Positions 34,874 through 50,591 of a stretch of DNA of 64,000 nt are shown piece by piece; positions within the stretch are counted from its first letter, which is position 1; each line of letters starts with the position of its first letter. This stretch comes from Kordiimonas marina (GTDB taxonomy: Bacteria; Pseudomonadota; Alphaproteobacteria; Sphingomonadales; Kordiimonadaceae). Below the pieces are notes generated by a model. That model did no database searches. It worked only from the letters and a program-made list of their open reading frames with translations, and was not told the origin of the DNA. Location of the stretch: contig NZ_JAINDF010000007.1 of the NCBI RefSeq assembly GCF_023006325.1, positions 1 through 64,000 on the forward strand, given 5' to 3'. The position numbers and the translations under genes were made by a program.

Positions 34874-35176
34874 CGGACATCTACCTGATTTATATATTTG
34901 TGGCGGCCATATTGCCGTGAAGTGGGGCCCGCATCAAGAAATGCCCGCATATTTCGCCCTCATTCCGGACCGAATTATTCATGAAGTCTCTGTTAATTTA
35001 CGGGTAGCTTCCCGTCACGGCTGTTGACAGACGGGTGACCTGTACTTATCTGTGCCTGAACCTTGCGCGCTCCAGCCGTGGTGCGCCGCATAATAATGTA
35101 TATGTACATCTTGCCCGTTGGGATCATGGAACGCCTGGTCCGTCGGACTGATGGAAAAGGGCAGGGCCAGATAAAT
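34874..35176. promoter_or_regulatory. argJ-secA divergent intergenic region
   Basis: About 300 bases. It holds the secA promoter (35024-35052), overlapping a CCCGTC/GACGGG inverted repeat (about 35011-35035). Open reading upstream of secA from 35063 is in frame but does not resemble SecA and is probably untranslated leader. Confidence 0.5.
35024..35052 (+). promoter_or_regulatory. Sigma-70 type promoter of secA
   Basis: A perfect TTGACA (35024-35029), 17-base spacer and TATCTG (35047-35052), 125 bases before the secA start. Confidence 0.55.
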
Positions 35177-37975
35177 ATGCTGGGATTTAATACACTCGCC
35201 AAGAAGATCTTCGGATCCGCCAACGAACGCTATCTGACGAAGCTGAAGCCAAAAGTGGCGGCTATCAATGCGCTCGAACCCGAATTCGAAAAGCTGAGCG
35301 ACGACGCCCTCAAGGCCAAGACCCAGGAATTCCGGGACAGGCTTGCCGAAGGCGCCAAGCTTGACGACCTGCTTGTTGAAGCCTTCGCGACCGTCCGCGA
35401 AGCGTCCAAGCGGACGCTGGGGATGCGTCACTATGACGTCCAGCTTATCGGCGGCATGGTCCTCAATGACAGCTCGATCGCCGAGATGAAGACAGGTGAA
35501 GGTAAAACGCTTGTCGCAACCCTCGCCGTTTATCTGAACGCGCTGCCGGGCAAAGGCGTCCATGTCGTCACCGTGAACGACTATCTCGCCAGCCGCGACG
35601 CCGAATGGATGAGCCAGGTTTACAGCTTCCTCGGCCTGACCACCGGCATCATCGTCCCCGGCAAGACGGACGAGGAACGCCGCGAGGCCTATGCCTGCGA
35701 TATTACCTACGCCACTAACAACGAACTCGGCTTCGATTACCTGCGCGACAACAGCAGCAAATACAGCTCGGACGAAATGGTCCAGCGGCCGTTCAACTAT
35801 GCCATCATCGATGAGGTCGATTCGATTCTCGTGGATGAAGCCCGGACCCCGCTCATCATTTCCGGCCCGACCGAAGACAAATCCGAACTTTATATCTCCC
35901 TCGACGCCATCATCGCCCAGCTCGCGGAAGAAGATTACGAAAAGGACGAGAAGCAGAAGACCGTCTCGCTGACCGAGGACGGCACCGAGCATGTCGAACA
36001 GCTTCTCCAGGAAGCCGGCCTTATGAAATCCGGCAACCTGTACGACTATGAGAATACCGCGATCGTGCACCATGTGGACCAGGCCCTGAAGGCCCACACC
36101 ATGTTCACGCGCGATATCGACTATATCGTCAAGGACAACCGGGTCATCATCATCGATGAATTTACCGGCCGGATGATGGAAGGCCGCCGCTATTCCGGCG
36201 GGCTGCACCAGGCGCTTGAAGCCAAGGAAGGCGTGGAAATCCAGCCGGAAAACCAGACGCTGGCGTCCATCACCTTCCAGAATTATTTCCGCATGTATCC
36301 GAAACTTGCGGGCATGACCGGTACGGCGCTCACCGAAGCCGAGGAATTCGGCGATATCTACAGCCTCGGCGTGGTCGAAATCCCGACCAACCTGCCGATC
36401 GCCCGTATCGACGAACATGACGAATTCTATCGGACGGCCAAGGAAAAATTCGACGCCATCCTCGTCGAGATCGAAGAAGCCGCCAAGAAGGGCCAGCCGG
36501 TCCTCGTCGGTACCGTCTCGATCGAAAAATCCGAAGTGCTGTCCGAGTTTCTCAAGAAGAAGAAGATCAAGCACCAGGTGCTGAACGCCCGCCACCACGA
36601 GCAGGAAGCCTATATCGTGGCGCAGGCCGGCCGTCTTGGCGCTGTCACCATCGCCACCAACATGGCGGGCCGTGGGACCGACATCCAGCTCGGCGGTAAC
36701 GTCGAGATGCGGATCGAGGCAGAATGCGCGGGCATCGAGGACGAAGCCAAGCGCGCTGAAATGATCGAGCGCATCAAGGCCGAGGTCAAGGTCGAAAAGC
36801 AGAAGGTTATCGACGCGGGCGGCCTGTATATCATGGCGACCGAACGCCACGAAAGCCGCCGTATTGACAACCAGCTCCGGGGCCGTTCCGGCCGTCAGGG
36901 TGACCCGGGCCGGTCGAAATTCTTCCTGTCGCTTCAGGATGACCTGATGCGCATCTTCGGGCCTGAGCGCATGGACAGCATGCTTGTCCGCCTCGGCATC
37001 GAAGAAGGCGAAGCCATCATCCACCCCTGGATCAACAAGGCCATCGAAAAGGCCCAGCAGAAGGTGGAAGCGCGCAACTATGATATCCGGAAAAACCTGG
37101 TCAAGTTCGACGATGTCATGAACGACCAGCGCCGGGTTATCTACGAACAGCGCCGCGAAATCATGGATTCGGACAATGTCCATGAAACCATCGCCGACAT
37201 GCGTGCCGACGTGGCTGCCCATATCATCGAGACCCGCATTCCGCCGAAATCCTACCCTGAACAGTGGGATATCGAAGGCCTCGGCGAGGATATCCGTCGC
37301 GTCTTCGGCATCGACCTGCCGGTCCAGGAATGGGCTGACGAAGAAGGCGTGGACGATACCGGCTTTCTTGAGCGGCTGGAAGAAAGCGTCAATGCCCTCG
37401 CGGAGGAAAAACGCCTGCGCTATGGCCCCGACTTCTGGGATCACATCGAGAAGAACTTCCTTCTGCAGGTGGTGGACCAGGAATGGAAGGATCACCTCCA
37501 GTATCTGGACCATCTGCGCCAGAGCGTGGGTCTCAGGGCTTACGGCCAGCGCGACCCGCTCAATGAATATAAAACCGAGGCTTTTTCGCTCTTCGAAGCG
37601 ATGCTGTACCACACGCGCGAAAGCATTGTGCAGCTCCTGAGCCGCGTTGAGCTCCAGACCGAGATCGATCCGGATGACCTGGCACCGAAAGCGCCGGATG
37701 CGATCATTGAGCAGCATATCGACCCGACGACCGGCGAGAACGAAGCCGGGATCGACCCGAACGACACCTCAAGCTGGGGCAATGTTCCGAGGAATGCGCC
37801 CTGCCCGTGTGGGTCTGGCAAGAAATACAAGCATTGCCACGGCGACATGGCCTCATCCCAGCATGGCGCCCTGTTGGCGGCACAGGCCACCAACCCCTTC
37901 TCGGGCGTCGGCCGCAATGACCCGTGCCCGTGCGGCTCCGGCAAGAAATTCAAACATTGCCACGGGGCCCTTTGA
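35177..37975 (+). CDS. secA: Preprotein translocase ATPase SecA with duplicated zinc-binding tail
   Basis: Motor that pushes unfolded preproteins through SecYEG. 932 residues from ATG 35177 ([13 protein letters not shown]); a GTG/ATG start further up would add 38 unrelated residues. The DEAD-motor Walker A is in M-K-T-G-E-G-K-T, followed by the preprotein-binding domain, second motor domain (T-N-M-A-G-R-G-T-D) and helical scaffold. The C-terminal SecB/lipid-binding zinc motif C-x-C-x8-C-H is present twice: C876, C878, C887, H888 and again C917, C919, C928, H929. SecA usually has one copy. Confidence 0.97.
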
Positions 37976-38600: not shown

Positions 38601-39491
38601 ATGAGCACCAACACAGCGATAAGAAGCACCATCACCGGGCTTGCCCTCGCCCTTGGCGGCCTTGGCAGCCAGGCAGCAACCGCAGACGTGGTCGTCGCGG
38701 CCCGGCCTATCCCCTATGACGGCCCTGCTTTCCGCGCCCAGCATCCGATCCGGGTCTATGTCGCGGTCGACACCGATACGCGCCGCGGTGAAGATATCCA
38801 CTTCGACCGGATCGCGCTCGATACCCTGACCCGCCAGTTGCCGCCCTATGTGCGGCTGGTTGACAGGCCCTATAAATCCGACCTGATGATTGTCGCCGAC
38901 CAGACAGACTATGACCTGGACTTCCGTGTCACGGACCGGGACCGGTTGGTTGAGCCTTACAACAGGCGCGCCCACTATGTCCGCGGCCGCTGCCACCGCT
39001 TCGACCAGGCTTATTACACCCGGACCCATGAAGAAGGCCGTGCCATGGCCCATTACAATCTGGAAATCCGGATGCGCCATTTCGGCCGCGATATCGACCA
39101 GGTCCGGCTTGGCACCAACCATGGCTACAGCTATGCCACGCACCTCAAGGCCACAACCAATTGCGGCTTTATCGAAACCAGCCACGCCCCAAACGAAAGG
39201 GTGCGGGACCTCCTGTCGAAAGGCGGCCAACGGTACCGTGTCGCTGTTGCCCATCAAATCCGGGAGGCTGCCGCCCGTGATCTCGGTAATATGCTGGCCG
39301 GGAAGGTCCGCCAGCTGAGCGACCAATATTATGACGGGCTCGCCGGTGCTGTCCGCTACCAGGTCGAGCTGCGTCCGGGCCGGTACTGGCGCTACCAGAA
39401 CCGTCCAGGCTGGGTTGTCCGCTGGCAACATGCCGACCGCGATGACTGGTACGACCGCTGGGAAGACCGGCATCATCGCCGTCACCGCTAA
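38601..39491 (+). CDS. Secreted protein of unknown function
   Basis: 296 residues. A signal peptide (about 1-28, cleavage near A-T-A/D-V) is followed by a domain rich in tyrosine, arginine and histidine, with a segment L-D-T-L-T-R-Q-L-P-P-Y-V-R that recalls proteins of periplasmic or lipoprotein type. Two cysteines (in R-C-H-R and N-C-G-F) could form a disulfide. The C-terminus is extremely basic and aromatic (W-Y-D-R-W-E-D-R-H-H-R-R-H-R). Family not recognised. A ribosome binding site GGAGGA precedes the ATG, and a terminator follows. Confidence 0.7.
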   Translation: MSTNTAIRSTITGLALALGGLGSQAATADVVVAARPIPYDGPAFRAQHPIRVYVAVDTDTRRGEDIHFDRIALDTLTRQLPPYVRLVDRPYKSDLMIVADQTDYDLDFRVTDRDRLVEPYNRRAHYVRGRCHRFDQAYYTRTHEEGRAMAHYNLEIRMRHFGRDIDQVRLGTNHGYSYATHLKATTNCGFIETSHAPNERVRDLLSKGGQRYRVAVAHQIREAAARDLGNMLAGKVRQLSDQYYDGLAGAVRYQVELRPGRYWRYQNRPGWVVRWQHADRDDWYDRWEDRHHRRHR

Positions 39492-39570
39492 TTCGCTAAC
39501 CGGTGCCTGCCCATCCTCGCGGGCGGGACACCGGCCCCACCAGCCTCCCCAAGGATAAGCTGGCCCTCAA

Positions 39571-39606
39571 GCGCCCGGCGCGGCATGGCCCACCGGGCGT
39601 CTTTTT
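39571..39606 (+). terminator. Terminator after the secreted protein gene
   Basis: Stem GCGCCCGGCG / CACCGGGCGT around a 10-base loop, followed by CTTTTTG on the plus strand. It sits between two convergent genes; the minus strand lacks a T run. Confidence 0.78.
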
Positions 39607-39619
39607 GTCGGAGATACGC

Positions 39620-40525
39620 CTAGAGCGCGTGCACCGCCAGCTTCCAGGCACCGAGGATGCCTGCCCGCTGGCCAAGGGCGGGCGGCACGACATAGGTCTC
39701 GAAATCTGCGGCCGTTTGCAGGTGCGGCAGATAGCCCGCAAGCTTTTCCTTAAGCGCCGTGCGGACCCGCGGAAACAGATGGTCCTGCTGCATCACCCCA
39801 CCGCCGAGGATGATCCGCTCGGGCGACAGGATAAGTGACAGGGTCGCGCACAGGGTGGCGAGATAGTCGGCTTCTATTCCCCACGCGGGATGCTCAGGCG
39901 GCAGCAATTGGCCAGGCGTCCCCCACCGGGCCGCAAGGGCGGGACCCGCTGCAAGGCCTTCCAGGCAGGCCCCACCGTGGAAGCGGCAGCTCCCGTCGAA
40001 AGCCATATCCTCCGTGTGCCGGGGGACGAGCATATGGCCAAGTTCCGGGTGCATGGCCCCGTGGACAATGTGCCCCCCTGCCATCACGCTGCCGCCGATG
40101 CCGGTGCCGATGGTGACATAGGCGATATCCCTAAGGCCCTTGCCGGCGCCAAGCGCCGCCTCGCCCAATAGCGCGCAATTCACGTCCGTGTCGAACAGGA
40201 CAGGACAGTCGAGCGCATCGATGAGGGGGCGTGCCACAGACGTGCCGCTCCAGCCCGGTTTTGGCGTCGCGGTGATATGCCCCCAGGTCGGAGACTCTTT
40301 ATTGAGGTCCACAGGGCCGAAACACCCAACCCCAAGCGCCGTGAGCGGCCGTGTGGCCGCGTGGTCCCGGAAGAACCCGGCAACCGCCCCCAGCGTCCTG
40401 TCTGGCGCTTCGGTCGGGAACGTCGCTTCCTCAAGGACAGAACCATCCTCGGTGCATAAGGCGCAAACAAACTTGGTGCCGCCGCCTTCGACCGCACCGA
40501 ACAGCTTAGGCTCACTCACGGCCAT
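39620..40525 (-). CDS. ROK family hexokinase (fructokinase/mannokinase type)
   Basis: 301-residue sugar kinase from ATG 40525; upstream in-frame codons belong to the overlapping cupin gene. It has the N-terminal phosphate motif G-A-V-E-G-G-G-T-K, the catalytic D in D-T-D-V-N-C-A, and the ROK zinc site in H-P-E-L-G-H ... C-R-F-H-G-G-A-C-L-E-G-L. The pattern is that of ROK fructokinases, some of which act on mannose. Last gene of the minus-strand hexosyl-glycerate operon, overlapping the cupin gene by 14 bases. The likely role is phosphorylating the hexose freed by the GH63-like hydrolase. Confidence 0.87.
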   Translation of the reverse strand: MAVSEPKLFGAVEGGGTKFVCALCTEDGSVLEEATFPTEAPDRTLGAVAGFFRDHAATRPLTALGVGCFGPVDLNKESPTWGHITATPKPGWSGTSVARPLIDALDCPVLFDTDVNCALLGEAALGAGKGLRDIAYVTIGTGIGGSVMAGGHIVHGAMHPELGHMLVPRHTEDMAFDGSCRFHGGACLEGLAAGPALAARWGTPGQLLPPEHPAWGIEADYLATLCATLSLILSPERIILGGGVMQQDHLFPRVRTALKEKLAGYLPHLQTAADFETYVVPPALGQRAGILGAWKLAVHAL

Positions 40526-40880
40526 ACTGGTCTTCAAGGCGTTCGATGTCCGATTCGCGGAGCTCATCCCCCACCTGCACCTCGATGAAGACGAGCATGT
40601 CGTCACCGACATTGGCGATCCGGTGCACGGCTTCCTGCGGGATATAGACGGCATCCTTGGCACCTAGGCGGGAGACTTGGCCGTCCACGGTTACCTCCGC
40701 GGTGCCCTGCACGATCACCCAATGCTCGGCCCGGTGTTCATGCTTCTGGAGGGACAGGGTATGCCCGGGCGCGACTTCGATCTGCTTGACCGCATAGCCG
40801 TCCCCCGCCGCCGTAACCGCCCAGCTGCCCCAGGGGCGCTTGTCGCTGTCACCTGCATGATACTCATTTACCTGTGTCAT
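40512..40880 (-). CDS. Cupin protein of the type II phosphomannose isomerase family
   Basis: 122 residues forming a single cupin barrel. The segment P-G-H-T-L-S-L-Q-K-H-E-H-R-A-E-H-W followed by V-x-G-T-A-E-V is the signature of the C-terminal isomerase domain of ManC-type enzymes, including the metal ligands Q, H, E and H. A stand-alone copy could interconvert mannose-6-phosphate and fructose-6-phosphate. Overlap with the ROK kinase gene and 26-base spacing from the glycerate kinase gene place it in one operon. Activity is inferred from family and context. Confidence 0.82.
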   Translation of the reverse strand: MTQVNEYHAGDSDKRPWGSWAVTAAGDGYAVKQIEVAPGHTLSLQKHEHRAEHWVIVQGTAEVTVDGQVSRLGAKDAVYIPQEAVHRIANVGDDMLVFIEVQVGDELRESDIERLEDQYGRE

Positions 40881-40906
40881 GGCGTCTGTTCCCGTGTTCC
40901 TAATGC

Positions 40907-42181
40907 TTACTGTACCGGCCGGACGAGGATGGCCCTGAAATCATTGACGTTGGTGCGCGTGGGGCCGGTGACGACCAGGTCACCCAGCGCCTTAAAGAAG
41001 GCGTAGCTGCGATTTTCCTTCAGATGATCCTCGGCGCTCAGCCCCATCTCATCGGCTCGGGCGAGTGTGCTGGGGCTGACGTAAGCGCCCGCCGCATCCT
41101 CACTGCCGTCGATACCATCGGTGTCGCACGCGAGCGCGTGGATACCCTCAGCGCCCTTCAAGGCACAGGCGAGACCGAGGGCATATTCCATGTTGCGGCC
41201 GCCGCAGCCGTCCGGGTTGCGGACTTCCACGGTGGTTTCCCCGCCCGACAGGATCAGCGTCGGCAGGCCACTGGCCTGCGCCTCCAGCGCCATGCGGGCG
41301 TGGGCACGGCCGAGGTCTGCCGCCATGCCTTCAAGGTCCGGCCCCAGGTCGATGACCCGGAGGCCTTGACGCTCGGCCCGGTTGCGGGCGGCGGCGAGCG
41401 CATCACCCGCGGACGCGACCAGGTCGGTGTGCCAACCCGCCCGCGCATGCTTGACCGTTTCATTGGCAGGATCAGCAAGGATTTCGAGAACCGGCGAGCC
41501 TTCGGGCGCGCCGTATTTGGCGATGATAGCGCTGGCATCCTTAAGCGTTGTGCCGTCGGCAATCGTCGGGCCGGAGCCAACATCGGCGAGACTATCACCG
41601 GGCACGTCGGAGATGACATAGGTCACCACTTCGGCGTCGCCCGCGGCCTGAGCCAAGCGCCCGCCCTTGATGGCCGAGACATGCTTGCGTACGCAGTTGA
41701 TCTCACTGATCGTGGCACCCGAATGCAGCAGATGCTTCATCAGCGCCTGCTTTTCCGCAAAGCTGAAACCCGGCGCAGGCAGCGACAGCACGGAGGAACC
41801 ACCGCCTGAGGCCAGGAAAATCAGCCTGTCTTCGGCCTTTAGCGTGCCCGCGAGCGCGAGCATCCGGCGCGCGGCCTGCTGGCTCATGTCATCGGGGACC
41901 GGGTGCGCGGCCTCCAGCACCTCAATGCCGTGGATCAGGCCGGGTACACCGTGACCGTAGCGCGTGACCACAAGGCCAGAAATGTCGCCGGTCACCGTAT
42001 CGGCAACCGTGGCAGCCATCGCGGCTGCGGCTTTGCCTGCCCCAAGGACAAGCGTTTTGCCTGCAGGCGCCAGCGTCCGCAGGTGCGACGGCAGGCAGGT
42101 CGCCGCCTGAACCCGGCACACGGCGGTGTCGAACAGTTCCATGAGCAGGATGCGGGCGTTATGGTCGTCTAAGGGCGCCAT
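40907..42181 (-). CDS. D-glycerate 2-kinase (GckA/MOFRL type)
   Basis: 424 residues of the glycerate kinase family with N-terminal DUF4147 and C-terminal MOFRL domains. Seen motifs are L-V-L-G-A-G-K-A-A near 44, S-G-G-G-S-S-V-L near 124, I-L-S-G-G-E-T-T-V near 309 and D-T-D-G-I-D-G near 356. Enzymes of this group make 2-phosphoglycerate from D-glycerate. Six bases separate it from the symporter gene upstream. In this operon it would use the glycerate half of a hexosyl-glycerate; other sources of glycerate (photorespiration products, tartrate, glyoxylate) have no genes here. Confidence 0.92.
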   Translation of the reverse strand: MAPLDDHNARILLMELFDTAVCRVQAATCLPSHLRTLAPAGKTLVLGAGKAAAAMAATVADTVTGDISGLVVTRYGHGVPGLIHGIEVLEAAHPVPDDMSQQAARRMLALAGTLKAEDRLIFLASGGGSSVLSLPAPGFSFAEKQALMKHLLHSGATISEINCVRKHVSAIKGGRLAQAAGDAEVVTYVISDVPGDSLADVGSGPTIADGTTLKDASAIIAKYGAPEGSPVLEILADPANETVKHARAGWHTDLVASAGDALAAARNRAERQGLRVIDLGPDLEGMAADLGRAHARMALEAQASGLPTLILSGGETTVEVRNPDGCGGRNMEYALGLACALKGAEGIHALACDTDGIDGSEDAAGAYVSPSTLARADEMGLSAEDHLKENRSYAFFKALGDLVVTGPTRTNVNDFRAILVRPVQ

Positions 42182-42187
42182 GACGGA

Positions 42188-43777
42188 TTACCCTACGGTT
42201 TTCGCAAGAGCGGTGAACCAGTCACCGATCCAGACGATGGTGGCGAGGATCGCGAGGAAGGCGCCCGCAAGCACGGCTGTGCTGCGCCACTGCACCGCCC
42301 CCGGATGGATATCCCCGAACGGCACCGTAACCTTGCGGCGGTCAAGCGCGACACTCACGAGGATGGCGACCACGAGCGTGACCGCAAGCCCGATGGCGTT
42401 CCACCAGAACCAGAAGACCTCCGGCGCCTCAAGCCACAGATAGAAGTTGAAGCCGACCCCGGCGAGAAGCCCAACATTGGCGCCGCGCGCGCTGACATTC
42501 TTGAACAGGATGCCGAGGAGGAATACCCCGAGGATCGGGCCATAGAACATGGAGCCGACCTTGTTGATCGCCTCAATCACCGTGTCAGCGATGCTGCCGC
42601 CGAAGAAGGAGAAGACGAGGATGAGCGCGGACCAGGCCAGCGCCGAGAAGCGCGACCAGAACACATATTGTTTTTCGCTGAGCTCACCGCCCGCCAGCTT
42701 GGCGATATCCTCGATCGTCACGGCGGACAGCGAGTTGATGACCGAACTGAGCGACGACATGGCGGACGCCAGGATCGCCACCACCAGAAGGCCGATCACC
42801 CCGTGCGGCAGGTAGGTGACGATGAAGGTGGGGATCATGCGGTCCGGCTGCTTGATGAAGTCGGCGAGTGGCAGGTCCGGTGCCTGGGTCGCCAGCGTGC
42901 CGATGATCAACCCCATCACGCAGTAAAGCAGCACCATCGGGAAACGCAGCAGGCCGTTGGCCAGCAGGATCTGGCTGACGGTCGTCTTGTTCTTGGCCGA
43001 CAGGATACGCTGGGCCTGGGTCTGGTCGCAGCCATAGTAGGAGGCATAAAGCACGAACCCGCCGAACAGCATGGGCAGGAAACCGAACTCATCGCCCTTG
43101 AAGCCGAAAGAATCGAAGCGCACGGCGGTAAGGCGTGAGGTATCCAGGTGGGTGAGGAAATTATCGACGCCGCCGAGGGCATGGAGGCCGTATGCCGCAC
43201 ACAGGAAAATGCCGAGGAAGATGATGATCATCTGGGCTGCATCGGCATAAACCACCGCCTTCATGCCACCCTGCAGCGAATAGACCGCCGTGACCACACC
43301 GACGATGCTGACCGCGACCCAGAAGGGCATGCCCATCATGCTTTCGAGGATGAGGGCGACGGCATAGATGGTGATGCCGGTCCCGAACGCCCGGCTGACC
43401 TGGAACACCACGCTGATCAGGAAGCGGGTATATTTGTCGAATCGTTCCTCAAGAAATTCATAGATGCTGACGAACCCGGCGCTATAAAGCCGCGGCATCA
43501 CGATGGTCATGAGCGCGATCATCGCCAGCGGCACCGCTAGCTCGTAAGACAGCCAGATCATGCCGCCGCCTTCGCGCACACCGACGAACGCCGGGGCGGA
43601 GATGAAGCTGATGGCCGAAAGCTGGGTCGCCATGGTCGACAGCGCCAGCGGGAACCAGCCCATGCTGCGACCGCCGAGGAAATAGTCGGCGCGGCTCGCC
43701 TGCTCGCGGTACAGGTAGCCAAGACCGAGAAGGGCGATCAGATAGCCCGCGACCAGCATATAGTCGAACATATTCAT
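42188..43777 (-). CDS. Sodium/solute symporter (SSS family)
   Basis: 529 residues with about 13-14 hydrophobic segments. The N-terminal D-Y-F-L-G-G-R-S-M-G-W region and the G-x-F-x-S-x-x-A-F-G-T-G motif mark the SGLT-like sodium/solute symporter family, branch associated with sugars and sugar acids. It would carry the substrate over the inner membrane with Na+, after uptake by the TonB receptor encoded upstream. Located between the hydrolase (60-base gap) and glycerate kinase (6-base gap) genes. Confidence 0.9.
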   Translation of the reverse strand: MNMFDYMLVAGYLIALLGLGYLYREQASRADYFLGGRSMGWFPLALSTMATQLSAISFISAPAFVGVREGGGMIWLSYELAVPLAMIALMTIVMPRLYSAGFVSIYEFLEERFDKYTRFLISVVFQVSRAFGTGITIYAVALILESMMGMPFWVAVSIVGVVTAVYSLQGGMKAVVYADAAQMIIIFLGIFLCAAYGLHALGGVDNFLTHLDTSRLTAVRFDSFGFKGDEFGFLPMLFGGFVLYASYYGCDQTQAQRILSAKNKTTVSQILLANGLLRFPMVLLYCVMGLIIGTLATQAPDLPLADFIKQPDRMIPTFIVTYLPHGVIGLLVVAILASAMSSLSSVINSLSAVTIEDIAKLAGGELSEKQYVFWSRFSALAWSALILVFSFFGGSIADTVIEAINKVGSMFYGPILGVFLLGILFKNVSARGANVGLLAGVGFNFYLWLEAPEVFWFWWNAIGLAVTLVVAILVSVALDRRKVTVPFGDIHPGAVQWRSTAVLAGAFLAILATIVWIGDWFTALAKTVG

Positions 43778-43837
43778 GGGTCAGCTTCCCCCTACCCTGT
43801 TTTCCGCTCCCCGGATGAGGGGCAGAGTACTCTTGCC

Positions 43838-45127
43838 TTATTGGGCCTGATCAGCACCCGTGCGGCCAGCCCAGTGGAGCCACATGGCCGCGGTCCAGGT
43901 GAAGTCCCCGCCGCCGGTGCCGCGCCCGGTCACCGGACAGAAGGCCTCATAGAAGCCAGTCTTTTCGATCAGGGCGCCCGTGTCCAGCCGGACGCGCTCG
44001 GCCCAGTCATTCAGGCCTTCGTTCGCGAGCCCGGTGGCGACCAGGAAATTCACCACGGCCCAGCACGGCCCGCGCCAGTACCGGATGGGGTCGAACTCCT
44101 TATGGTCAGGGTCGAGGCTCGGCACCATATAGCTGATCTTGCGCCCGATACGCTCCAGATGACCGATCAGCAAGGATCGTTGCGAAGTCGAAACGACACC
44201 AGCATAGAAGCCTAGGAAGGACGCACTGGTGATCATACCGCTCGATTTGCCGGTGATCATATCGCGCGAGCAATAGGCCCCGACCTCATCATTCCACAGC
44301 CAGGCAACGCCTTTTTCGGCGTTGGCGATCCGGGCGCGGAGCTTTTCGGCGTCGGCATCATGGCCGAGCGCTTCGGCGAGCGCGAGCAGGTCACGGTTCG
44401 CGCGGATGAGGATCATGGTCATGCTGACATCGACCACGCGGAACGGGCCTTCGGTGGCGATCTTCTTATGGTCCCAGCCGCAATCCCGACCATATTGGAC
44501 CATGGCGAGATAACGGTCATAATCCAGCTTGGTCGGCCGCATGCTGGCGTCCAGGTGGCTGGTGTCCCGCCGTACGTAAGGCTCAACGCCGGAGATATCG
44601 ACGGCCGCGGCAGGCTCGTCCCATTCGGGGGAATTATCGCGCCCGCTTTCCCACGGGTGGACGGAGACCACGAGGCCTTTATTGTCCGGGTCGCGGACGT
44701 CTTCAAACCAGTCGTGCCAGGCGGCCAGCTTCGGGTAAAGCGCTGCGGCACGGGCTTTCTCATCTTCCGTGACGGCGCTTTCATAAAGCCAGCGGACCAC
44801 GCTTGCGGCCACAGGCGGCTGGGTGATGCCCGAGGTAGCGATCTTCTTGTTCGTGCCCCACACCCCAGGGCCGGGGAAATAGCCTTCATCATCGCGCCAG
44901 AAGACGATATGGGCCATGAAGCCGTCATCCCACTGGGCGGAGAAAAGCGTTTCGATTTCTGTCCAGGCGCGGTCGCGGTCAAAGGTCGCGAAACCGAGCG
45001 CCGTGAAGGCCGAGTCCCAGTTCCACTGGAACGGATAGACCTGGCCGTTCGGTACGGTATAGCCGCCCCGGTCGTTGGCCTGGAGAATGTCTTGGGCTGC
45101 GCGGTCAAGGATGGATCGGTCGGTCAT
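43838..45127 (-). CDS. GH63-like glycoside hydrolase, candidate mannosylglycerate/glucosylglycerate hydrolase
   Basis: 429 residues forming one (alpha/alpha)6 barrel, with no signal peptide, so cytoplasmic. Motifs F-Q-W-N-W-D-S-A-F (33-41), W-D-D-G-F-M-A-H (66-73), H-P-W-E-S-G-R-D164-N-S-P and the C-terminal Y-E394-A-F ... G-x-G-G-G-D-F-T-W-T-A-A match GH63-type inverting glycosidases. D164 and E394 fit the expected general acid and base. The short single-domain form is the one I associate with mannosylglycerate/glucosylglycerate hydrolases rather than the larger trehalase or glucosidase I enzymes. Context supports this: the adjoining glycerate kinase, hexokinase and isomerase would use the products. 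Substrate is inferred. Confidence 0.75.
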   Translation of the reverse strand: MTDRSILDRAAQDILQANDRGGYTVPNGQVYPFQWNWDSAFTALGFATFDRDRAWTEIETLFSAQWDDGFMAHIVFWRDDEGYFPGPGVWGTNKKIATSGITQPPVAASVVRWLYESAVTEDEKARAAALYPKLAAWHDWFEDVRDPDNKGLVVSVHPWESGRDNSPEWDEPAAAVDISGVEPYVRRDTSHLDASMRPTKLDYDRYLAMVQYGRDCGWDHKKIATEGPFRVVDVSMTMILIRANRDLLALAEALGHDADAEKLRARIANAEKGVAWLWNDEVGAYCSRDMITGKSSGMITSASFLGFYAGVVSTSQRSLLIGHLERIGRKISYMVPSLDPDHKEFDPIRYWRGPCWAVVNFLVATGLANEGLNDWAERVRLDTGALIEKTGFYEAFCPVTGRGTGGGDFTWTAAMWLHWAGRTGADQAQ

Positions 45128-45234
45128 AGGGCACCAAAACTGAAAATTACAACATTACGCGATGCCCGCAGGCATCGATGATACGGGGGGACGGGGACGC
45201 AGCCACCGGCTTTGTCCCCGCCCCAGGGGAGGGA

Positions 45235-47712
45235 TTAGAATTTATAGGTCATGCGGACAAAGACCCGGCGCGGCAGGATCGGACGGCCGACGAAATAATC
45301 GCCTGCGTTCGCCTGGCCGGAGCCCTGACGGGGTGACCCTTCGGTAATGCCTTCGCTGTTGAACAGATTGAAGATGCTGAGGCCGATACGGGCGGTCTGC
45401 GTGCCTGTCACATGGAAGGTGTAGCCAGCATCAAGCCGCGCGATGGTGTAGGCGTTCAGCTTCACCGTGTTCGAATCGTTGGCATAGTTGTCACCGACAT
45501 AGGTGGCATAGAAGGAGCCGTCGAGCGTGCCGTCGTCATAATAGAGACCTGCGTTCGCCATGACCTTCGGCTGACGGCGCATTTCGTTGCCGATGTAAGC
45601 GTCGTTGCCTTCGAACTTGGTGAACTTGTGGTTCTGCAGCGTAACGTTACCGCTGACCTGCAACGCACTGGTGATATTGTAGGACGCCGTACCCTCAAGC
45701 CCGAAGGTGCGGGTCGACTGGACGAAGACCTGCTCGGTCACACCGCCCTGGCCGTCGTTCACGAAGTCCACGTTCCGGCGGTTGCTGAGCTTAGCCCAGA
45801 AGCCGTCAACCGTGGCGGCGAACCGGTCATCCCGATATTTCAGGCCGACTTCAGCCTGGGAGATGATCTCGCCCTTATAGGATGCCGGTTGGCCGAACTC
45901 GTTGAAGCTGACACTGCGGATCTGCGGGAAGAAGTATCCCCGCGCGCCGTTGGCATAAAGGCTCAGGTTATCGCTCATGCGGTACAGGGCACCGACGGAG
46001 ACAGCCCACTCGGTGGTTTCCACCCGGCCACGGGTATAGGCACCGTTGCCGTAGGCCACATACTGAAGGTCATGGGCGAGGCTCGGGTCGCTGTTCGCGA
46101 GGTAGGTCGAGGACCCTTCCTTGGCGATGTCACCGATCATCTTTTCAACACGTACACCAACGTCGAAGACCCAGCGGTCATTCTCGAACTGGTCGGCCAG
46201 GTATCCCGCGTAACGGGTCGCCTTGTTGGAGCTGTTGCCGTAGCCCGCGCCAGCGTTCAGCAGACCGTTCTGGGACACGGTCAGGTCATTGCCCTGATTG
46301 TCGGTCACGACCACATTCACCATGTCAGGTCGGCTTTGGAACTGGCCCAGATAGGTGGTCAGCACATCCTGGTCGTCGGCCTTGGCCCGGGCGAAGAAGC
46401 CGCCCAGCGTGAAGCTATGGTTGAAATTGTCGGTGGAGACATCCTTGGTGAGGTTCACTTCCGCCGTGAAGTCAGTCGCCGGGCGGTTCCGGTCCAGAAG
46501 GCGGTTGGCGAACAGGAGGTCATTGCTTCCAAGTGCCTGACCTGATGTCGCATCGGTGAAGGATGCGCTGGCATAGCCGTCATAGCCACGAGCGGCCAGG
46601 AAGCCAGCCTGGGTTTCCGGCAGGTTCACGACACCGTCGCCATCGAGGAACAGGTTGAACTCGTGGCTGTAGCGCGCATATTTCATCTTCGCGTTCAAGC
46701 CCCAGCCATTGTCCATATGCTTATCCAGCACAGCCGAGAAGGAGCCGCCGCGCGTCAGCACGCCGTTCGAGATCGGGGTGCGGTAGACACCGTTCGGGGT
46801 CTGGTACGACAGGCCGGAAGCCGCGTCCGTCTGCAGCGTCATGATGGTGTTGCCGTCATTGCCGGTCGGCCGCGCACGGGTGGTGCCGTCAAGCGGGAAC
46901 GGCAGGAAGAACTGCACGCTATCGTCAACCCACTGGCCATAAAGCGTGACCGAGCCGGAGCCGTCCGCGAAGTCATGCTTGATGTTGCCGCGGAGCTGGA
47001 AACCTTCGGTCGGCAGCCCGGTCTTCAAGGGGCCTTCATCGTAGCGGTAATAGCCGGAAATGGCGTAATAGGTGTTGGAGTTCTGGCCGCCGAGCGGGCC
47101 GGACGCCGCAAAGTCACCACGGAAGCGGCCGCCTTCGGCCCATTCCAGCTGCATCGTGCCTTCGGGGGTGTCGGTCCCGGTCTTGGAGATATAGTTGATG
47201 ATCCCGGCGACCGAGCCTGCACCGAACAGGTTGGACACACCGCCGCGCACGAATTCGAGGCGCTCGATCCCCAGGTCGTTCTTGTAATAAACGTCGAAGG
47301 CCGAGCTGTTGAGGCCGAAGGTGCTGAAGACCGGAATGCCGTCATACTCAAGCGGGGTGAAGCTATACTGGCCACCCGACGGCAGGCCCTTGATGAAGAC
47401 GTTCGCGGCCACTTCACCGCCGCCGCCTTCGGCCTTGATGGCCGGAATGGTGCGGAGAATATCCGCCTGGCTGCTGGCCGACAGCCGCGCGATTTTGGCT
47501 TCACCCATCTGCGAAACCGACATCGGTGTCGCAAGGTTGGCGCGCGCCCGGCTGGTACCGGTGACGACGATCTCGTCGATCGTCTTGTCGGCGACAGCCT
47601 GTTTTTTCTGAGTGGGGGCAGCATCTTCGGCCCAGGCGCCCGCGCTCATGGCCACGCTGGAAAGCGCAAGCACCGCACAGGACTGCAATAAGACCTTTTT
47701 ATAGTTCGTCAT
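45235..47712 (-). CDS. TonB-dependent outer-membrane receptor 3, first gene of the hexosyl-glycerate operon
   Basis: 825 residues from ATG 47712, chosen because AAGGAA lies just upstream and a signal peptide follows directly (cleavage about A-W-A/E-D). The TonB box I-D-E-I-V-V-T-G-T is near residue 46, then a plug with V-F-I-K-G-L-P and a barrel ending in phenylalanine (V-R-M-T-Y-K-F). It precedes the hydrolase gene by 107 bases. The context suggests a small glycoside as substrate. However, the leader contains a cobalamin-riboswitch-like element, so cobalamin or a corrinoid must be considered. Confidence 0.88.
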   Translation of the reverse strand: MTNYKKVLLQSCAVLALSSVAMSAGAWAEDAAPTQKKQAVADKTIDEIVVTGTSRARANLATPMSVSQMGEAKIARLSASSQADILRTIPAIKAEGGGGEVAANVFIKGLPSGGQYSFTPLEYDGIPVFSTFGLNSSAFDVYYKNDLGIERLEFVRGGVSNLFGAGSVAGIINYISKTGTDTPEGTMQLEWAEGGRFRGDFAASGPLGGQNSNTYYAISGYYRYDEGPLKTGLPTEGFQLRGNIKHDFADGSGSVTLYGQWVDDSVQFFLPFPLDGTTRARPTGNDGNTIMTLQTDAASGLSYQTPNGVYRTPISNGVLTRGGSFSAVLDKHMDNGWGLNAKMKYARYSHEFNLFLDGDGVVNLPETQAGFLAARGYDGYASASFTDATSGQALGSNDLLFANRLLDRNRPATDFTAEVNLTKDVSTDNFNHSFTLGGFFARAKADDQDVLTTYLGQFQSRPDMVNVVVTDNQGNDLTVSQNGLLNAGAGYGNSSNKATRYAGYLADQFENDRWVFDVGVRVEKMIGDIAKEGSSTYLANSDPSLAHDLQYVAYGNGAYTRGRVETTEWAVSVGALYRMSDNLSLYANGARGYFFPQIRSVSFNEFGQPASYKGEIISQAEVGLKYRDDRFAATVDGFWAKLSNRRNVDFVNDGQGGVTEQVFVQSTRTFGLEGTASYNITSALQVSGNVTLQNHKFTKFEGNDAYIGNEMRRQPKVMANAGLYYDDGTLDGSFYATYVGDNYANDSNTVKLNAYTIARLDAGYTFHVTGTQTARIGLSIFNLFNSEGITEGSPRQGSGQANAGDYFVGRPILPRRVFVRMTYKF

Positions 47713-47884
47713 GTCATGTTCCTTCCCTAAGTAAGAGGCCACAAGCAGGCGTCATGGACCTCTCGGAGCAGCCTCCGGCGCGGGGGACGAAAATGAATGA
47801 CAGGCGGACCGAACGGTCGCGCCTAATTCCCCTCCCAGGCCTTAGGCCAACGCGGTACCGCTTGAATGTGGTGCCGCTTAAGTG

Positions 47885-47983
47885 CAGCAGGTCTCCGGCT
47901 TGGCTCCGGCAGCCCCAATAGGTGGCTGTCGCGGATGGTCCCCGATAGGACGTCCCCTGATGAGCAGGCTTGAAGACGCGCTG
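47885..47983 (-). ncRNA. Candidate compact cobalamin riboswitch in the leader of TonB receptor 3
   Basis: Read on the minus strand, three cobalamin-riboswitch marks occur in order: CAGGGGA, then CATCCGCGACAGCC with a downstream CC-TATTG (compare ATCCG..GCAGCCCCCGC-ACUGU), then the B12 box AAGCCGGAGACCTGC. The box end AGACCTGCTG (47894-47885) can pair with CAGCGCGTCT (47983-47974) to close helix P1 with one mismatch and one G-U. The box lacks one base between AAGCC and GGAGACC compared with the usual consensus, and the peripheral P7-P9 part is short. The ATG of the receptor is about 170 bases downstream, which leaves space for an expression platform. Confidence 0.5.
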
Positions 47984-48064
47984 TAATCCCTTCCCTTTAT
48001 TCCGCCCGCGACCGATGGCCTGCGGGGGAATGACGATGGTATAATCCATTAAAACTTAATTTAC

Positions 48065-48090
48065 AACCCATTATGGGTTATAAAATGGGT
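48065..48090. promoter_or_regulatory. Candidate operator for the divergent ROK regulator
   Basis: AACCCAT-T-ATGGGTT (48065-48079) is a perfect 7-bp inverted repeat with one central base. A third half-site ATGGGTA lies at 48084-48090, 12 bases further. It is in the shared upstream region of the receptor operon and the ROK regulator gene, where a repressor of both would bind. Confidence 0.5.
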
Positions 48091-48262
48091 AATGATATTT
48101 GATTCAAGGAATGATACAGTGCCGCAAACCTTGTCCCATGCGGCAAATTGCCTTTTAGTGCACTGATATGTATGGGATTTTTGTCATGGTTTGCGATTGT
48201 TCCATCGTTCCGGGGCTGATGTTTCGCCCACCCTTACCCCAAAGAAGCCCGTGAAAGAGCCC

Positions 48263-49426
48263 ATGCCGACGACCCGAAATTTGCGAACACCACCGCCTTT
48301 CTTCGCCGACAATGACGTCCAGATCCCGTCGGAACGGGAGATGTCCATCCTGGGCCTCACCCTGCTCCATGGCGGCCTGACCCAGCCGGAGATCATCCGG
48401 GCATCCGGCCTGCCGCAGCAGACAGTTTCACGACTCGTCAAAGGGCTGATCGAGCGCGGGATGCTGCGGGAGGAACAGCGCGTCTCCAAAGGTCGCCGCG
48501 GCCAGCCCAGCATGTTCGTCGCCGCCGAGCCCGGCTTCGCTTATTCGTTCGGCGTCGCCATGATGACGGACGCGCTTTCCGTGGTGCTGATGGATTTCGC
48601 CGGCAATGTCCTGTTTGAAGAACTGACAGCGATGCCGAGCATGGCGCAGCGCGTCGTGTTGGAAGAACTGGATGTGCTGTTCGAGAAAGCCCTCGCCGCC
48701 TGCCGGGTCGACCGCAAGAAGGTGCTGGGCGTCGGGGTCGGCATCTCAGGCTATAATTTCGGCAAGGGCGCGCGCTTCAACACGCCGCGCCAGCTGGACG
48801 AATGGGCGCTTATCGAAATCGACGACGTGCTCAACAGCCATCTGGGCCTGCCGGTCTGGGTGGAGAACGACGGCAACGCCGCCGCGATCGGCGAAAGCCT
48901 GCTCGGCGTCGGCCGCACCTACCAGAATTTCGCCTATCTCTTCATCGCGACCGGCATCGGTGGCGGCATCATTACCAACCACCAGCTCCTGCGGGGCTGC
49001 AACGGCAACGCGGGTGAGATCGGCCTCATCCTGCCCAGCCAGATCTACCCGCACCCGAACCTTGAAATCCTGCGCCAGATCGTCACCCGCCACGGCATCG
49101 AGGTCGACAGCGTGACCGACATGCTGGAACGCTTCGATGTCACCTGGCCCGGTGTTGACGACTGGATTTCCCGCACCCGGGACAGCATGTCGCTGATCGT
49201 CTCGGCGCTGGCGGCGATCCTGGACCCGGAGGCCATCGTCCTCGGCGGCCGCATCCCGAAGGAGCTGGCGCGCAAGGTCATCCCGCACGTCGAGGTGTAC
49301 GACCATTACCGCCGCGCGGAACCCCGGCCGCTCCCGCGGATCGTGCTGGGGGAAAGCCCGGGTGATGCCTGCGCGATCGGCGCGTCCATGCTGCCGTTCA
49401 AGCGCTTCTTCTTCTCGGGCATCTAA
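48263..49426 (+). CDS. ROK family transcriptional regulator
   Basis: 387 residues from ATG 48263; GTG 48251 and TTG 48191 are upstream alternatives. The N-terminal winged helix (about 20-65: L-T-Q-P-E-I-I-R-A-S-G-L ... T-V-S-R-L-V-K) is followed by a ROK domain with G-I-G-G-G-I-I and G-N-A-G-E-I-G-L. The cysteine zinc motif found after this point in many ROK repressors and kinases is missing, being replaced by I-L-P-S-Q-I-Y-P-H-P. It probably senses a sugar or sugar phosphate and represses the divergent receptor/hydrolase operon. A dyad in the intergenic region is a candidate operator. Confidence 0.87.
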   Translation: MPTTRNLRTPPPFFADNDVQIPSEREMSILGLTLLHGGLTQPEIIRASGLPQQTVSRLVKGLIERGMLREEQRVSKGRRGQPSMFVAAEPGFAYSFGVAMMTDALSVVLMDFAGNVLFEELTAMPSMAQRVVLEELDVLFEKALAACRVDRKKVLGVGVGISGYNFGKGARFNTPRQLDEWALIEIDDVLNSHLGLPVWVENDGNAAAIGESLLGVGRTYQNFAYLFIATGIGGGIITNHQLLRGCNGNAGEIGLILPSQIYPHPNLEILRQIVTRHGIEVDSVTDMLERFDVTWPGVDDWISRTRDSMSLIVSALAAILDPEAIVLGGRIPKELARKVIPHVEVYDHYRRAEPRPLPRIVLGESPGDACAIGASMLPFKRFFFSGI

Positions 49427-49436
49427 ACACCCCGTC

Positions 49437-49468
49437 CAAAAAGAAACCGCCGGGAAAATACCCGGCGG
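49437..49468. terminator. Terminator between the ROK regulator and nrdB genes
   Basis: CCGCCGGG (49447-49454) pairs with CCCGGCGG (49461-49468). On the minus strand it is followed by TTTCTTTTT, so it ends nrdB; it may also stop the convergent regulator transcript. Confidence 0.8.
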
Positions 49469-49493
49469 TCCTGATCAGATATTTTGGGTGGCC

Positions 49494-50480
49494 TTAGTTG
49501 AAGGCGTCATCCCACGAGCCGCGCGTCGCCGCCTTCGAATATTCGGTGGCGCGGTTTTCGAAGAAGTTGGTGTGTTCGACCGCGTTGAGCATGCTGTCGA
49601 GCCACGGCAGCGGGTTCTTGTCCGCGTCATAGGCTTCTTCAAGGCCGAGCTGAAGCAGGCGCCGGTTGGCGATATAACGGATATATTGCTTCACTTCCGC
49701 AGCGGTCAGCCCCTCGATCGGCCCCATGCCGAAGGCGAGGTCGATGAAGGCGTCTTCATGCTCGACAATCGTCAAGCAGGCGTTGGTGATCTGGGATTTA
49801 AGCTCGTCATCCCACAGTTCCGGGTTCTCGCTCATCAGCGTCTTGAAGAGCTTGATGATCGATTCGCAGTGGAGCGACTCGTCCCGGACCGACCAGCTGA
49901 TGATCTGCCCCATGCCCTTCATCTTGTTGAAGCGCGGGAAGTTGAGCAGCATGGCGAAGCTGGCGAACAGCTGCAGCCCCTCGGTGAAGGCACCAAACAC
50001 CGCCAGCGTCAGCGCGACCGACTTCAGGTCGTCCGAGCCGAACTGCTGCATATAGTCGTATTTGTCCTTCATCTCCTTATAGCGGAGGAAGGCGGAATAT
50101 TCGGCCTCAGGCATCCCAAGCGTGTCGAGAAGGTGGCTATAGGCGGCGATATGGATGGTCTCCATGTTGGAGAAAGCCGCCAGCATCATCTGTACCTCGG
50201 TGGGTTTGAACACCTTGGTATAATGCTTCATATAGCAGTTGTTCACCTCGATATCGCTCTGGGTGAAGAAGCGGAAAATCTGGGTCAGCAGGTTCTTTTC
50301 CGATTCGGTCAGCTTCTTGGCCCAGTCGCGCACGTCCTCGGCCAGCGGCACTTCTTCCGGCAGCCAGTGAACCTGCTGTTGGATAAGCCAAGCCTCGTAT
50401 GCCCACGGATAGCGGAACGGCTTGTAAACATGGCGTTCTTCCAGAAGTCCGGACGGACCGTTTTCTTCCACGTCAGTCAT
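49494..50480 (-). CDS. nrdB: Ribonucleotide reductase class Ia small subunit
   Basis: Generates and holds the tyrosyl radical used by NrdA to make deoxyribonucleotides. 328 residues from ATG 50480; longer starts read into the leader. The di-iron ligands are visible in E107-T-I-H110 and in D-E-S-L-H-C-E, and Y114 in H-I-A-A-Y-S-H aligns with the radical tyrosine. It is not next to nrdA, whose stop codon is 5.7 kb upstream on the same strand. An NrdR-box-like site lies in its leader. Confidence 0.94.
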   Translation of the reverse strand: MTDVEENGPSGLLEERHVYKPFRYPWAYEAWLIQQQVHWLPEEVPLAEDVRDWAKKLTESEKNLLTQIFRFFTQSDIEVNNCYMKHYTKVFKPTEVQMMLAAFSNMETIHIAAYSHLLDTLGMPEAEYSAFLRYKEMKDKYDYMQQFGSDDLKSVALTLAVFGAFTEGLQLFASFAMLLNFPRFNKMKGMGQIISWSVRDESLHCESIIKLFKTLMSENPELWDDELKSQITNACLTIVEHEDAFIDLAFGMGPIEGLTAAEVKQYIRYIANRRLLQLGLEEAYDADKNPLPWLDSMLNAVEHTNFFENRATEYSKAATRGSWDDAFN

Positions 50481-50591
50481 TCTGACCCTGTCTCCCACTC
50501 TTGACGATGTGATCTGTTGCCCTCCCTCCCGGTGTGCGTCCGGAAGGGCGCTCACTATACCCCCTCAATTTGTGGAGAGCTACGCCCTTAT

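Follow-up and report, generated by a model that had tools for sequence, protein, structure and literature searches.

A predicted mannosylglycerate uptake and degradation operon with a TonB receptor and a sodium symporter in Kordiimonas marina

Mannosylglycerate (digeneaside) is a compatible solute of red algae and thermophiles, and both enzymes that split it and genes for its degradation are known from bacteria. Here, these systems are compared with a gene cluster of Kordiimonas marina, found in a 64,000-nucleotide stretch of DNA (assembly GCF_023006325.1, contig NZ_JAINDF010000007.1, positions 1 to 64,000; hereafter the window). The window lies on contig C23 of the genome, which totals 3.68 Mb. 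The cluster quite probably acts as an inducible catabolic operon for mannosylglycerate, with glucosylglycerate as a probable second substrate.

The mannosylglycerate hydrolase (MgH) of Thermus thermophilus (PDB 4wva/4wvb/4wvc, 2z07) belongs to the same single-domain family of glycoside hydrolases, GH63, as the hydrolase of the window. The two share a catalytic pair and a glycerate pocket, with 46-47% identity over the aligned model. The window enzyme differs in its setting, where its gene shares an apparent operon with genes for an outer-membrane receptor, a sodium symporter and the predicted kinases of its two products. The glucosylglycerate hydrolase of Mycolicibacterium hassiacum (MhGgH) has the same fold and pocket, but its identity to the window enzyme is 32%, and its Q434 corresponds to F409 here. 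According to PMC6608630, MhGgH prefers glucosylglycerate and is thought to mobilise an internal pool. The E. coli genes mngR, mngA and mngB provide, by record annotation, for uptake and splitting of the same compound under a dedicated regulator. They include an enzyme II of the phosphotransferase system and an annotated alpha-mannosidase, whereas Pfam finds neither domain among the seven genes of the window cluster, and the window pathway would hydrolyse its substrate before phosphorylation.

Among the Flavobacteria, digeneaside-degradation genes of Maribacter dokdonensis are reported as homologues of characterised Zobellia galactanivorans traits (PMC8072126), and digeneaside is named among the possible substrates of polysaccharide utilization loci (PMC6298971). 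These algae-associated bacteria are predicted to degrade the same compound. The remark in the original prediction that nothing of the sort had been described was too strong in the light of the Zobellia and Maribacter reports. Genes for digeneaside degradation are already on record; the window adds an operon form with a TonB receptor and a symporter, whose function is strongly predicted. No description of a TonB/symporter mannosylglycerate operon was found in the literature searched, which consisted partly of incomplete texts and lay outside most subscription papers.

The cluster is a compact block bounded on one side by a short gene, which ends at 39491, and on the other by nrdB (49494-50555). 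The receptor, hydrolase, symporter, glycerate kinase, cupin and sugar kinase genes follow one another in that order on the minus strand, and a regulator gene diverges from them on the plus strand:

39492..49493: whole cluster, apparently inserted where the 38601-39491 gene and nrdB would otherwise be neighbours (congener comparison)
45235..47712, minus strand: TonB-dependent outer-membrane receptor, 825 residues, with signal peptide; predicted outer-membrane importer (Pfam)
43838..45127, minus strand: GH63 mannosylglycerate-hydrolase-type enzyme, 429 residues, acid D164, base E394 (PF22422, PDB, residues, model)
42188..43777, minus strand: SSF sodium/solute symporter, 529 residues; predicted inner-membrane importer of the intact glycoside (PF00474, TIGR00813)
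40907..42181, minus strand: D-glycerate 2-kinase of the DUF4147/MOFRL type (Pfam, NF041176, PDB 2b8n)
40512..40880, minus strand: stand-alone type II mannose-6-phosphate-isomerase cupin by domain, 122 residues (PF01050, TIGR01479)
39620..40525, minus strand: ROK sugar kinase, 301 residues, nearest to fructokinases (PF00480, ScrK, PDB 3ohr/1xc3)
48263..49426, plus strand: divergent ROK-family transcriptional regulator with a MarR-like helix-turn-helix and a ROK domain (Pfam MarR_2, ROK)
48065..48079: candidate operator, a perfect palindrome of 15 bp (AACCCATNATGGGTT) within the divergent promoter region

The reading frames and families named in the original prediction are all in place, each of the seven proteins scoring above the Pfam cut-off, and its interpretation of the set as a hexosyl-glycerate uptake and degradation operon is supported. 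Read from the sequence, the more likely start of the receptor is the ATG at 47712, with the signal peptide MTNYKKVLLQSCAVLALSSVAMSAGAWA; the more likely start of the ROK kinase is the ATG at 40525, which gives a 14-base overlap with the cupin gene, and that of the regulator the ATG at 48263. With these starts, successive minus-strand genes are separated by 107, 60, 6, 26 and -14 bases, spacing as in an operon. The genome holds only two MannoseP_isomer cupins, one MOFRL domain and one MGH1-like domain, and the same partner genes recur beside homologous hydrolases elsewhere, all six operon genes being present in a Cellvibrionales genome (L066). This rarity and recurrence indicate that the gene set is more than a chance assembly.

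Both sequence and model group the hydrolase with mannosylglycerate hydrolase and apart from trehalases and processing glucosidases. It scores 390 bits against PF22422 (MGH1-like glycoside hydrolases; cut-off 27). Against solved proteins it scores 396 bits with Thermus thermophilus MgH (2z07/4wva), at most 212 with MhGgH, 26 with E. coli trehalase and 22 with YgjK. A model built from an alignment of 13 sequences (pLDDT 89.6) is nearest to 4wva/4wvc, matching 4wva with a Z score of 56.4 and 1.5 Å over 409 residues; Z reaches 48.8 for MhGgH, 33.5 for YgjK and 31.1 for trehalases. Public annotation of related proteins favours a trehalase or another alpha-glucosidase: 17 of 30 listed plasmid relatives are named trehalase (7 are called hypothetical and 6 have no annotation), and Pfam Trehalase reaches 37 bits on the window enzyme, over a low cut-off of 21. 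Neither the sequence scores nor the fold comparison places the enzyme among GH37 trehalases, and glycerate-contacting Y36, Y88, R216 and Y375 are kept in 99/99 aligned loci. A trehalase or glucosidase identity is thus contradicted by these comparisons and scarcely credible, and the trehalase label on the relatives looks like a misannotation. A homologue with less than 60% identity occurs in 100 plasmid records (e.g. NZ_CP021332.1, NC_019790.1), 71 of them from Rhizobium; in the Deinococcus plasmid NC_019790.1, DUF4147 (glycerate-kinase-type) and ABC ATPase genes are annotated under the match.

The active site was compared by mapping the substrate contacts of MhGgH, as given in PMC6608630, onto the window hydrolase. 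Eighteen of the 19 catalytic, sugar-side and glycerate-side residues examined are identical. The acid and base first assigned from the sequence alone, D164 and E394, align with the catalytic Asp182 and Glu419. The carboxylate subsite, proposed as a check on the assignment, is also preserved: the direct glycerate contacts Y31, W35, Y83, R197 and Y350 are kept, as are Q103, W159 and Y203 (roles from the same source). The sole exception is F409 in place of Q434, a state shared with Thermus MgH and found in 98/99 loci, window included, with a gap in the remaining locus. With this grouping and these residues, every outcome that would have counted against the original prediction and could be computed failed to appear. 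No signal peptide was seen on the hydrolase, whose N-terminus reads MTDRSILDRAAQ.

The accessory genes fit the import of a glycoside and the metabolism of its halves. The receptor has a TonB plug (51 bits) and a TonB_dep_Rec_b-barrel domain (99 bits) and no other Pfam domain, and receptor homologues with 44-64% identity lie near the hydrolase in 26 related loci. The symporter scores 149 bits against PF00474 and 240.7 bits against TIGR00813 (cut-off 184); its closest solved relatives are sodium-coupled monocarboxylate and iodide transporters. The glycerate kinase has the DUF4147 (243 bits) and MOFRL (129 bits) domains of D-glycerate 2-kinases, and it scores 242 bits with a putative glycerate kinase, PDB 2b8n. 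With 124 bits against PF01050 MannoseP_isomer (cut-off 23.6), the cupin is a type II mannose-6-phosphate isomerase by domain and is predicted to have that activity. The sugar kinase scores 194 bits against PF00480 and 263 bits with the putative fructokinase 3ohr/1xc3. Finally, the regulator combines ROK (82 bits) and MarR_2 (41 bits) domains, and its homologues (48-64% identity) adjoin the receptor in 11 related loci.

From this gene content we infer a pathway in which substrate, transport roles, kinase and isomerase specificities and regulation are all predicted. The TonB-dependent receptor would carry the glycoside across the outer membrane, and the sodium symporter would carry it across the inner membrane. 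The cytoplasmic hydrolase would then split it into mannose and D-glycerate; GH63 enzymes hydrolyse by inversion. Glycerate would be converted to 2-phosphoglycerate by the MOFRL kinase, and mannose to mannose-6-phosphate by the ROK kinase and on to fructose-6-phosphate by the cupin. Binding of the divergent ROK regulator to the 48065-48079 palindrome probably keeps the operon repressed, with a sugar ligand relieving the repression. Recycling of a pool made by the cell itself through the mannosyl-3-phosphoglycerate route was considered and set aside as unlikely, because no mannosyl-3-phosphoglycerate synthase domain was found in the genome, in a search that detected the Thermus control and did not extend to glucosylglycerate synthases or one-step mannosylglycerate synthases.

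The family of the hydrolase does not fix the sugar, because Thermus MgH splits both glycosides about equally. The gene neighbourhoods of related hydrolases bear on this question. Ninety-nine loci were compared: the window, 20 genome stretches, and 78 of 80 contigs, L053 and L064 being dropped as the same contigs as L027 and L033. The contig relatives are the best 80 of 583, so the counts describe close relatives and not the whole family; Bacteroidota lay outside the comparison, and near-copies such as L029/L030 were counted separately. A module was scored as present when a protein similar to one of its query proteins (one or a few per module) was encoded within 8 kb, a procedure that may miss remote modules, and a locus counted as TonB-type when a TonB receptor with 40% identity or more lay within that distance. 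By these definitions 27 loci are TonB-type (window included), 57 have an ABC (ATP-binding cassette) transporter and 15 are of other kinds. Within the TonB type, a glycerate kinase occurs in 22 loci, a symporter in 8, a major facilitator superfamily (MFS) transporter in 13 and a ROK regulator in 12. The LacI-ABC clusters (57/99), most of them from Alphaproteobacteria, have the same hydrolase family at about 45-58% identity to the window enzyme, but the ABC transporter replaces the TonB receptor and the symporter or MFS protein, a glycerate kinase lies within 8 kb in 2/57, and no ROK regulator was found.

Three unrelated mannose modules occur beside the TonB-type hydrolases. The isomerase cupin is present in four loci (window, L025, L031 and the Cellvibrionales locus L066). 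A protein of the N-acetylglucosamine-2-epimerase family is present in three (L028, L055, L061); those of L028 and L055 are nearest to D-mannose isomerase and each lies beside a kinase nearest to fructokinases, with best matches below cut-off. In three others (L027, L029, L030), mannonate dehydratase occurs with a short-chain dehydrogenase/reductase (SDR) and an SMP-30-type lactonase, and the L027 UxuA passes its equivalog cut-off (492 versus 200 bits). L029 and L030 also have a PfkB kinase, the L029 copy being nearest to 2-keto-3-deoxygluconate kinase, below cut-off. In these two loci the hydrolase gene is followed by a run that encodes SDR, mannonate dehydratase, PfkB kinase and SMP-30-type lactonase (L029:4637-8442, L030:10877-14682) and that seems to make up an entire oxidative route from mannose to 2-keto-3-deoxy-6-phosphogluconate. 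A mannose module lies within 8 kb in 10/27 TonB-type loci, in 4/57 ABC-type loci (all of the epimerase family) and in 0/15 others. Label changes across the starred branches of the hydrolase tree number at least three for the cupin and at least two for each of the other two TonB-type mannose labels, indicating that unrelated mannose routes joined one core more than once. Such an exchange is expected if the released hexose is mannose, and the neighbourhoods therefore favour mannose over glucose. Module exchange offers a gene-neighbourhood argument for which sugar an otherwise ambiguous hydrolase releases.

Several results weigh against mannosylglycerate as the substrate or against the detailed assignments. 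MgH from Thermus and from Selaginella is about as efficient on mannosyl- as on glucosylglycerate (PMC6608630), so that F409 fits an MgH and yet leaves the sugar unsettled. The only close equivalog family for the hydrolase is glucosylglycerate hydrolase, NCBIfam NF047898, although its cut-off of 550 bits is above the 352 bits reached. The glycerate kinase falls short of its equivalogs (NF041176, 221 of 550 bits; NF040791, 154 of 670), and the cupin, which aligns to positions 352-467 of GMP_PMI TIGR01479, lies below the nearest NCBIfam cut-off. The top NCBIfam match of the ROK kinase is fructokinase ScrK NF045550, below cut-off (256 of 400 bits). In favour of the main reading, ScrK is the best-scoring family in 6/7 TonB-clade ROK kinases compared (window, L066, L028, L032, L047, L052); against it, the seventh, beside the L045 receptor, comes closest to the glucokinase subfamily of ROK proteins (141 bits against a cut-off of 260). 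In 17 of the 27 TonB-type loci the 8-kb range contains no mannose module. The contigs of some (L033, L057) are short, and L032, L047 and L052 each have a ROK kinase nearest to fructokinases; module-less loci could have glucosylglycerate as substrate, or their mannose enzymes could be encoded elsewhere. A red-algal origin of the substrate, part of the first interpretation, is no more than an ecological guess, because Sphingomonas and Novosphingobium have relatives of the locus too.

A rival proposal that builds on these points makes glucosylglycerate the main substrate, with glucose phosphorylated by the ROK kinase and the cupin serving mixed substrates or the supply of GDP-mannose as an accessory. 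ROK kinases can accept a broad range of sugars, which would suit this proposal. However, a glucose pathway has no use for mannose-6-phosphate isomerase, D-mannose isomerase or mannonate dehydratase, and one such enzyme is nevertheless present in the ten module-bearing TonB-type loci, in separate parts of the tree. F409 is also the residue of Thermus MgH, not of the glucosylglycerate-preferring MhGgH. We regard glucosylglycerate as the main substrate as unlikely. The preference for mannosylglycerate in the original prediction is upheld, backed independently by the interchangeable mannose modules of relatives, although tempered by the module-less loci.

The imported compound might also be larger, containing a hexosyl-glycerate (e.g. 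mannosylglucosylglycerate or an acylated form) that is trimmed before or after import. A TonB receptor arguably exceeds the strict need of so small a solute, L027-L030 have a second, longer GH63-like protein beside the symporter, and a tannase-family esterase is nearby in L046 and L047. To contrast, the window cluster has no second glycosidase or esterase, and its pocket residues are those of small-substrate enzymes, making a larger import very improbable here.

The longer GH63-like proteins, of 579-612 residues (L027:403-2148, L028:16552-18291, L029:16214-18052, L030:1268-3106), match YgjK and MhGgH weakly; in L027 the MGH1-like domain covers residues 254-558 and the preceding part has no Pfam match. 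The tannase-family esterases (L046:12878-14185, L047:12048-13205) and PhyH-type dioxygenases (L047:11173-12051, L050:11766-13343, L052:13408-14298) near the hydrolase belong to Sphingomonadales/Steroidobacter loci, where the substrate is possibly a modified one.

Beyond the window, we lean towards a wider pattern of TonB- and sodium-coupled mannosylglycerate scavenging in Alpha- and Gammaproteobacteria. Such a system would have passed from lineage to lineage as an island, with a fixed import-and-split core joined to any of three unrelated mannose routes, including the apparently complete oxidative one. If this is true, mannosylglycerate is a widespread bacterial nutrient hidden under trehalase annotations. 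If the mannosylglycerate reading is right, there would be a defined gene set through which the fate of mannosylglycerate/digeneaside in proteobacteria can be tested, and proteins currently annotated as trehalase family or hypothetical would deserve new names.

In a quick hydrolase tree, the 27 TonB-type loci form one branch of 29 rows with L026 and L045 (Shimodaira-Hasegawa-like approximate likelihood ratio support, SH-aLRT, 96); two long branches, L044 and MhGgH, are joined in this tree, and their placement is unsure. The L045 receptor lies beyond the 8-kb limit, and that of L026 is distant (26% identity). The hydrolase nearest to that of the window, L025 (69% identity), comes from a different family of the same order, and two species of the window's own genus have the mannonate-dehydratase version, with a hydrolase of 59% identity. 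At E 1e-30 the hydrolase was found in 3/19 genomes of the genus, counting the one that holds the window; among the 16 without it, a few are incomplete. On either side of the cluster stand the 38601-39491 gene and nrdB, and in 15/18 other genus genomes no more than about 1 kb separates the two. A contig end intervenes in one of the remaining three, and the 38601 gene was not found beside nrdB in G012 and G016. This conserved adjacency in congeners indicates that the window's lineage most likely acquired the cluster at this site. Its GC content is not outstanding.

The region between the receptor and regulator genes holds the AACCCATNATGGGTT palindrome, of which the genome has one exact copy. 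An approximate search, with the window's own palindrome as pattern and single-base shuffles as null, found a best site that beats shuffles (P <=0.03) in 7/11 other divergent regions (L025, L029, L030, L032, L052, L059, L061), L029 and L030 being near relatives that count nearly as one in this statistic. The divergent regions of L027, L028, L055 and L062 had no site at that level. Exact dyads common to divergent regions were shared by at most 2/12 loci, a level also reached by shuffles. With up to two mismatches the palindrome occurs at 12 genome places, versus one for a reversed control, and the word may be used elsewhere in the genome too. As for a wider regulon, that idea was rejected: the one-mismatch place lies inside a 421-codon frame around which no pathway genes were recognised, and the one two-mismatch place examined (of ten) is inside another frame. 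Scans for sigma-70 promoters and terminators gave sites no more numerous than in shuffles, and an Rfam scan gave no match at the gathering threshold. A pattern scan also flagged the 48065-48079 palindrome as a terminator-like hairpin. We read the palindrome as a candidate operator of the ROK regulator.

Elsewhere in the window, SecA (35063-37975) has two copies of a 14-residue motif at its C-terminal end, and its congener matches L130 and L135 also suggest a repeat.

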